NCBI GenBank assembly: GCA_022562935.1
Contig: JADFOI010000021.1
Coordinates: forward strand, 1 to 36,110
Length of the DNA: 36,110 nt
Direction: 5' to 3'
DNA from: Acidobacteriota bacterium
Lineage (GTDB): Bacteria > Acidobacteriota > UBA6911 > RPQK01 > JADFOI01
The first letter of the stretch is position 1. The number at the start of each line of letters is the position of its first letter. Under the pieces are notes generated by a model that worked only from the letters and a program-made list of their open reading frames with translations, had not been told where the DNA came from and did no database searches. Below, piece after piece: positions 33,184-33,973 of this stretch. Position numbers and translations under genes: made by a program.

Positions 33184-33241
33184 ACATTTAAACACGCCCA
33201 GGCTTCAAGACCGAGTCGAGAGGTGAATAGAGGTAAAAATC

Positions 33242-33973
33242 ATGACTCAGAATCTTCCATACAATTATGAGGGTTATCTTCCTGGTGAGGAAGAAGAGGA
33301 GGATTTTTCAAGATTTCAACAAACGCTAAAGGTAGGTACGGAAGCGCCGGATTTTGAGGCCACGCGTCTTGAGGACGGAAAGAAAGTGAAGTTGTCAGAT
33401 CTGACAGCCCGATCCAATGTCGTTCTTGAATTCGGAAGTCTAACCTGACCGTTTTGTGGCATAGCCGGGCCGGCTATGGAGAAGCTTGCCATCGAATACC
33501 AGGACACAGGATACGACTTCGTGTTTGTCTATACACGGGAGGCACATCCGGGAGAACTCCGCCCCCATCACACCCGTTTCGAGCAGAAGCTGGATCAAGC
33601 GAGAGCTTTTCAGTCTCAATATGACATCAAGCGCCCCATCCTGGTTGACAGTCTGGACGGGGCTGGACACCGGGCATATGGGGCCCTTCCGGACATGCTG
33701 TACCTGATAGGGAAAGGCCAGCGTTTGATCTGGTTCAAGGCGGACTGGACGGATGCCGACACCCTAAGAATTATTTTGGAGTACCAGATAAAACGGACGG
33801 AGATGCGGCAGGCTAACCGAAAGGTAGGCCCCAATTATTGCGAGTTCCTGGGATTCCGGCCTCGGATGTGGGATCGATTTGTCGCACACCTCCATACTAA
33901 CGGGCCCAAGGCTGTGGCCGATTGGGAGCGGGCCATGGCCTATTGGAAAGAACACCCGCCCAGCCATGGATAA
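33242..33973 (+). CDS. Iodothyronine-deiodinase-like selenoprotein (TGA at 33446-33448 read as Sec)
   Basis: A 243-residue thioredoxin-fold protein if the TGA at codon 69 is read as selenocysteine. Residues 35-68 (APDFEA, DGKKVKLSDL, NVVLEFGSLT) lead into U69-P70-F71-C72, which matches the deiodinase active-site pattern FGSxTUPxF. The same frame continues with YQDTGYDFVFVYTREAHPGE (His in EAHP is conserved in deiodinases) and RAYGALPDMLYLIGKGQRLI to the TAA at 33971. A bSECIS-like hairpin lies at 33460-33478. A ribosome site (GAGG) precedes the ATG. The protein has no signal peptide and an acidic N-terminus. The substrate in bacteria is unknown: it could be a reductive dehalogenase or a peroxide or thiol reductase. 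The Cys three residues after Sec (UxxC) is unlike animal deiodinases. No Sec machinery is in the window. An ordinary premature stop is the alternative, but both sides and the hairpin argue against it. Confidence 0.85.
33460..33478 (+). promoter_or_regulatory. Candidate bacterial SECIS element
   Basis: CATAGCCG-GGC-CGGCTATG: a perfect 8-bp stem with a 3-nt loop whose first two bases are G. The loop starts 20 nt after the last base of the TGA (19 nt between them), inside the 16-37 nt range known for bacterial SECIS elements, where at least one G among the first two loop bases is expected. It lies in the coding sequence, as in other bacterial selenoprotein mRNAs, and would bind SelB. Confidence 0.75.

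Follow-up and report, generated by a model that had tools for sequence, protein, structure and literature searches.

The gene at 33242–33973 on the plus strand of the window (the whole 36,110-nt stretch of Acidobacteriota DNA analysed here) very probably encodes a cytosolic selenoprotein of the PF00837 superfamily, in which UGA codon 69 is recoded and Sec69 and Cys72 would act together as a reductase. The internal UGA is almost certainly read as Sec: the selenocysteine machinery of the source genome, the conserved TGA, purifying selection and the SECIS elements of homologues all support the original prediction that this gene makes a Sec-containing protein. The gene and its features are as follows.

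33230–33234, plus strand: Shine–Dalgarno-like GAGGT, read from the sequence
33242–33973, plus strand: deiodinase-like selenoprotein gene, 243 residues, ATG start, TAA stop
33446–33448, plus strand: in-frame TGA, residue 69, predicted Sec (TGA in 7/7 full-length homologues, Cys in distant ones)
33455–33457, plus strand: Cys72 codon (UPFC), proposed resolving cysteine (alignment A2)
33460–33478, plus strand: putative bacterial SECIS hairpin, 8-bp stem, GGC apical loop at 33468–33470 (folding and homologue comparison)
33539–33550, plus strand: EAHP (E100, H102), deiodinase proton-relay signature, invariant in 23 rows and aligned with Dio3
33755–33970, plus strand: C-terminal helical extension, present in the 7-member clade, without Pfam match

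The frame consists of 243 codons plus TAA, with the GAGGT site 7–11 nt upstream of the ATG and one internal TGA at codon 69, within FGSLT-TGA-PFC; the single in-frame TGA flanked by continuous frame on both sides is thus as originally described. A 174-codon open stretch follows the TGA (p ~0.001, taking the window composition as the chance model). Third-position GC is 0.40 in 33242–33445, before the TGA, and 0.64 in 33449–33973, after it. The expectation that the gene would be split into fragments of 68 and 165 residues without recoding was borne out by the ORF listing, in which an ATG at 33476 opens the 165-residue ORF; gene callers would split the gene in the same way, suggesting that real selenoproteins of this type are hidden in annotations. 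The known motif of iodothyronine deiodinases, FGSxTUPxF, had been cited for comparison. In animal deiodinases the motif ends in Phe; the window protein shares the FGSxTUP part but reads UPFC, with Cys in place of the final Phe. A promoter and terminator scan found neither.

Full-length homologues, including the C-terminal part, were found in seven of the 396 Acidobacteriota genomes searched, counting the source genome itself. The relatives are those of G001 (93 % protein identity) and of G038, G053, G066, G257 and G111 (39–45 %). TGA stands at the same codon in each of the seven, followed by Cys at +3 (UP[FY]C), and tRNA-Sec was found in every one of the seven genomes. More distant homologues (L029, L030, L002, L059, L060 and L062; genomes or loci G018, G002, G000:C44, G267, G361 and G061) carry Cys at the Sec site. 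Whether position 69 is Sec or Cys among homologues had been named as a check, and the pattern recovered is TGA in 6/6 full-length relatives and Cys in the distant ones. Measured against the G001 gene, dN/dS comes to 0.11 for the part preceding the TGA and 0.13 for the part following, the latter value indicating that the region past the 'stop' is translated and selected; with purifying selection on both sides (dN/dS ~0.1), the gene has not decayed beyond this one stop. A single-protein search of the genome contigs returned the 93 %-identical relative (L055) as its sole match, and a plasmid collection search gave one weak Mycolicibacterium match, annotated as deiodinase-like. Apart from ECF sigma/anti-sigma genes, which only G038 and G066 have, the homologues share no neighbour genes; as gene order is not conserved, no neighbour points to a substrate.

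The source genome is a fragmented MAG (3.44 Mb, 188 contigs, 89 % complete). It holds all four components whose presence was in question, each over cut-off: tRNA-Sec (anticodon TCA, 71.4 bits), selA (574 bits), selB (362 bits) and selD (374 bits), the last with an in-frame TGA of its own (CAGUASK, Sec-type). Two closely similar selB copies are present (L016 and L017, on G000:C19 and G000:C24), one of them cut by a contig start; this suggests either a duplication or that the MAG mixes strains. On C24, selB is followed by a TatA-like gene. Two tRNA-Sec genes above cut-off were seen in each of four relatives, G024, G032, G033 and G040. Global reassignment of UGA was ruled out, since TGA is the ordinary stop of 8/20 main window genes.

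The hairpin, CATAGCCG-GGC-CGGCTATG, starts 11 nt past the TGA and its loop starts 19 nt past it, confirming the predicted 8-bp stem with GGC loop at 33460–33478. By itself it is modest evidence, marginally better than chance, and it becomes convincing only together with the homologues. Against dinucleotide shuffles it gave z = -1.15, with 29/200 shuffles equally good; under a synonymous-codon null, P(stem >= 8) was 0.10 and P(MFE) 0.037; and under a SECIS-shaped rule, P was 0.026. Because the hairpin alone is barely unusual, the original identification of a SECIS needed outside support. The rule asks for at least 4 bp, an apical loop of 3–8 nt with G in the first two positions, and a loop start 14–26 nt past the codon; it was framed after the folds had been inspected, and its terms match the published bacterial consensus. 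Such a hairpin follows the codon in 21/22 TGA homologues versus 0/12 homologues with a sense codon at the site (rank test p = 1.6e-6, the rows not being independent by descent), so the SECIS claim, near chance level on the window hairpin, holds once the homologues are included. Within the 7-member clade, the 8-bp hairpin (7-bp in G257) and GGC loop are retained in most members, G111 having a weak 4-bp version only. In the codon-aligned sequence, the hairpin centre of the window pair lies 2 nt away from that of the G038 group; as the GGC hairpin is retained despite this register shift, both arms changed together. An Rfam gathering scan of the window matched tRNA alone and no SECIS family.

Two readings would dispense with selenocysteine. 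In one, a Cys codon has been mutated or misread to TGA, leaving a pseudogene or a sequencing error; TGC/TGT to TGA is a one-base change and the assembly is a MAG in 188 contigs, but the same TGA occurs in six further genomes, dN/dS downstream is ~0.13, and both SECIS and full machinery are present. We give this explanation next to no credence: a TGA that is conserved elsewhere in the phylum, in other families, refutes it. The other reading is also very improbable: the UGA would end a 68-residue peptide and the ATG at 33476 would start a second, 165-residue protein. Such an ATG-started ORF does exist, and termination normally competes at UGA; however, the thioredoxin fold would be cut at its catalytic motif, and in the Cys homologues L029, L002 and L030 one continuous gene spans the same region. 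We rejected the two-gene reading on these grounds.

The recoded protein matches two Pfam families above their cut-offs, PF00837 (T4_deiodinase; 48.4 bits, cut-off 27) and PF00578 (AhpC-TSA; 46.1 bits, cut-off 26), and for the G111 protein PF00578 outscores PF00837. In a search with a family profile built from alignment A2, mouse Dio3 reached 104 bits and Dio2 reached 90, the next best being ResA at 49. The invariant residues of this 23-row alignment include F64, G65, T68, U/C69, E100, H102 and P150; Cys72 is present in 7/7 clade members, with no Cys at that column in the other 16 rows. An AlphaFold2 model of the window protein (pLDDT 84, pTM 0.75) superposed on the Dio2 core with a target TM of 0.77 and an rmsd of 2.0, yet the best Foldseek match was ResA, at an E-value level equal to that of Dio2, and Prx was likewise not separated. 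As the model matches ResA as well as Dio2, fold alone cannot decide the family.

In a small tree, the seven full-length homologues form one clade (97/94), and mouse Dio2 and Dio3 group with six other acidobacterial Sec proteins (94/94; drawn as open). On sequence grounds, the window protein is thus placed in the deiodinase superfamily but outside its animal-type branch. The original label 'deiodinase-like' therefore holds for superfamily membership, with Dio3 and Dio2 scoring above ResA, and fails for the animal-type branch; it tells of ancestry and says nothing about the reaction catalysed. The six proteins beside Dio2/Dio3 (L066, L068, L069, L033, L034 and L035) have FGS(Y/H)TUPPF, a long insertion past EAHP and a GPFGF-like end, and the two tested reach 102–109 bits to PF00837. 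They are candidates, as far as their sequences go, for the bacterial stem of the animal deiodinases, and with this tree the bacterial origin suggested in 2005 becomes testable on particular sequences.

We propose that SelB with Sec-tRNA-Sec would decode UGA 69, helped by the hairpin directly downstream, for which the evidence is comparative. As nucleophile, the Sec69 selenolate would occupy the position where helix 1 of a thioredoxin/peroxiredoxin fold begins, probably assisted by a proton relay of Ser66, Thr68, Tyr97, Glu100, His102 and His109-110. The corresponding residues S66, T68, U69, Y97, E100, H102 and H109/H110 are retained in alignment A2, and the relay described in work on Dio2 and Dio1 comprises Ser127, Thr129, Tyr157, Glu160, His162 and His182 in Dio2 numbering (PMC11592359). 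The electrophile that Sec69 then reduces would most likely be a peroxide or a disulfide/S-adduct. Judging from its conservation, Cys72 may resolve the oxidised selenium by forming a selenenyl-sulfide within the molecule, to be opened by thioredoxin or a small thiol as cofactor. Similarly, DIO1 is resolved when a proximal Cys forms an intramolecular selenenyl-sulfide (PMC9141512); that Cys is at -2, whereas Cys72 lies at +3. Our guess is that the substrate is more likely a peroxide or disulfide than a halogenated aromatic.

Animal Dio1-3 (PDB 4tr3, 9h48) resemble the window protein in their thioredoxin/peroxiredoxin-like fold, FGSxTUP motif, Ser/Thr/Tyr/Glu/His relay and Sec nucleophile. In contrast to them, it lacks the N-terminal membrane helix and the D-insertion (loop-D), has Cys at +3 and an extra C-terminal extension, and uses a bacterial rather than eukaryotic SECIS. 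The absence of the D-insertion is evident from the loop between EAHP and the second His, which is ~9 residues shorter than in Dio3. In the Dio enzymes, loop-D provides substrate contacts and Arg275/Lys241 form the carboxylate clamp (PMC11592359). In the window protein, ADWTDA replaces the animal-like bacterial GPFGF and no counterpart of the clamp was seen, although the Dio alignments stop short there. With loop-D missing and no clamp counterpart seen, iodothyronine deiodination is not expected.

These comparisons bear on two other accounts of what the selenoprotein does. It could be a true reductive dehalogenase, in which Sec69 applies the chemistry of animal deiodinases to another substrate, removing the halogen of a bacterial aromatic compound such as a halogenated phenol or a derivative of iodo- or bromotyrosine. 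The retained relay (S66, T68, Y97, E100, H102 and His at 109/110; Dio roles in PMC11592359) and the deiodinases as nearest solved relatives by profile speak for this, but the missing loop-D, the lack of a visible clamp counterpart, the extra Cys72 that makes a thioredoxin-like UxxC, the lack of any halogen-metabolism gene among the neighbours, and the grouping of animal Dio2/3 with other acidobacterial proteins rather than with the window clade make it fairly unlikely. We also doubt, rather strongly, that the protein is a general redoxin of the AhpC/TSA or TlpA/ResA type whose resemblance to deiodinases is limited to the surroundings of the active site. ResA/TlpA and AhpC/TSA proteins do share the fold, the window UxxC sits in the place of their CxxC as in thioredoxins, and both the PF00578 score (46 bits) and the level Foldseek scores of ResA and Dio2 fit such an account. 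However, these proteins lack FGSxTU and EAHP and reach about half the family-profile score, the profile sets Dio3/Dio2 (104/90 bits) apart from ResA (49 bits), and FGSxTU, EAHP and the E-H relay are common to the whole domain. A Sec69/Cys72 reductase of the PF00837 superfamily remains our preferred reading. A more far-reaching proposal sees the UPxC clade, with its C-terminal helical extension, as a separate bacterial enzyme subfamily restricted to Sec, which would reductively dehalogenate a halogenated compound from the environment. This seems to us quite unlikely; if true, bacteria would have had deiodinase chemistry before there were thyroid hormones.

Bacterial selenoproteins resembling deiodinases have been on record since a Sargasso Sea survey (Zhang 2005, PMC1088965), and a 2026 review lists them as PF00837 with UxxC, giving MFL2763324.1 as the example and describing their biological functions as largely unresolved (PMC13188914). 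The window gene is thus a well-supported further member of a known family and not a new kind. Compared by description, the catalogued proteins likewise combine PF00837, a bacterial SECIS, UxxC and coexisting Sec and Cys forms; the C-terminal extension and YNY N-terminus of the window clade may define a subclade among them. A literature search for deiodinases in Acidobacteria found no relevant paper in the library covered. The NF038285 model ('deiodinase family protein') gave 72.4 bits, under its curated cut-off of 250; the deiodinase domain aligned over model positions 173–320, and the first 170 model positions are unmatched by the window protein.

One Acidobacteria genome carries at least four TGA-bearing deiodinase-like genes together with Cys and Thr forms, and such a Sec/Cys/Thr series is a natural set for asking what role the fold plays without thyroid hormone. 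A second TGA gene of the source genome (L005, G000:C131:12753-13211, minus strand) joins EF-hand repeats to a deiodinase-like domain with the motif FGCLTUPPF and to a C-terminal part that matches DsbD_N weakly; in its relative L037 (G004), EF-hand-like repeats are found at the C-terminal end instead. At G000:C111:5701-6630 lies a tandem deiodinase-like pair (L004/L006), of which one member has MGSSTUPPY (TGA) and its neighbour GSSTT, the latter probably without a nucleophile given GSSTT in the Sec/Cys place; G002:C231 holds a similar tandem pair. Finally, the deiodinase-like proteins L064, L065 and L067, from one acidobacterial family, have Ser in place of Sec/Cys (SVSSPSF, SASSSNF), yet keep REAHP.
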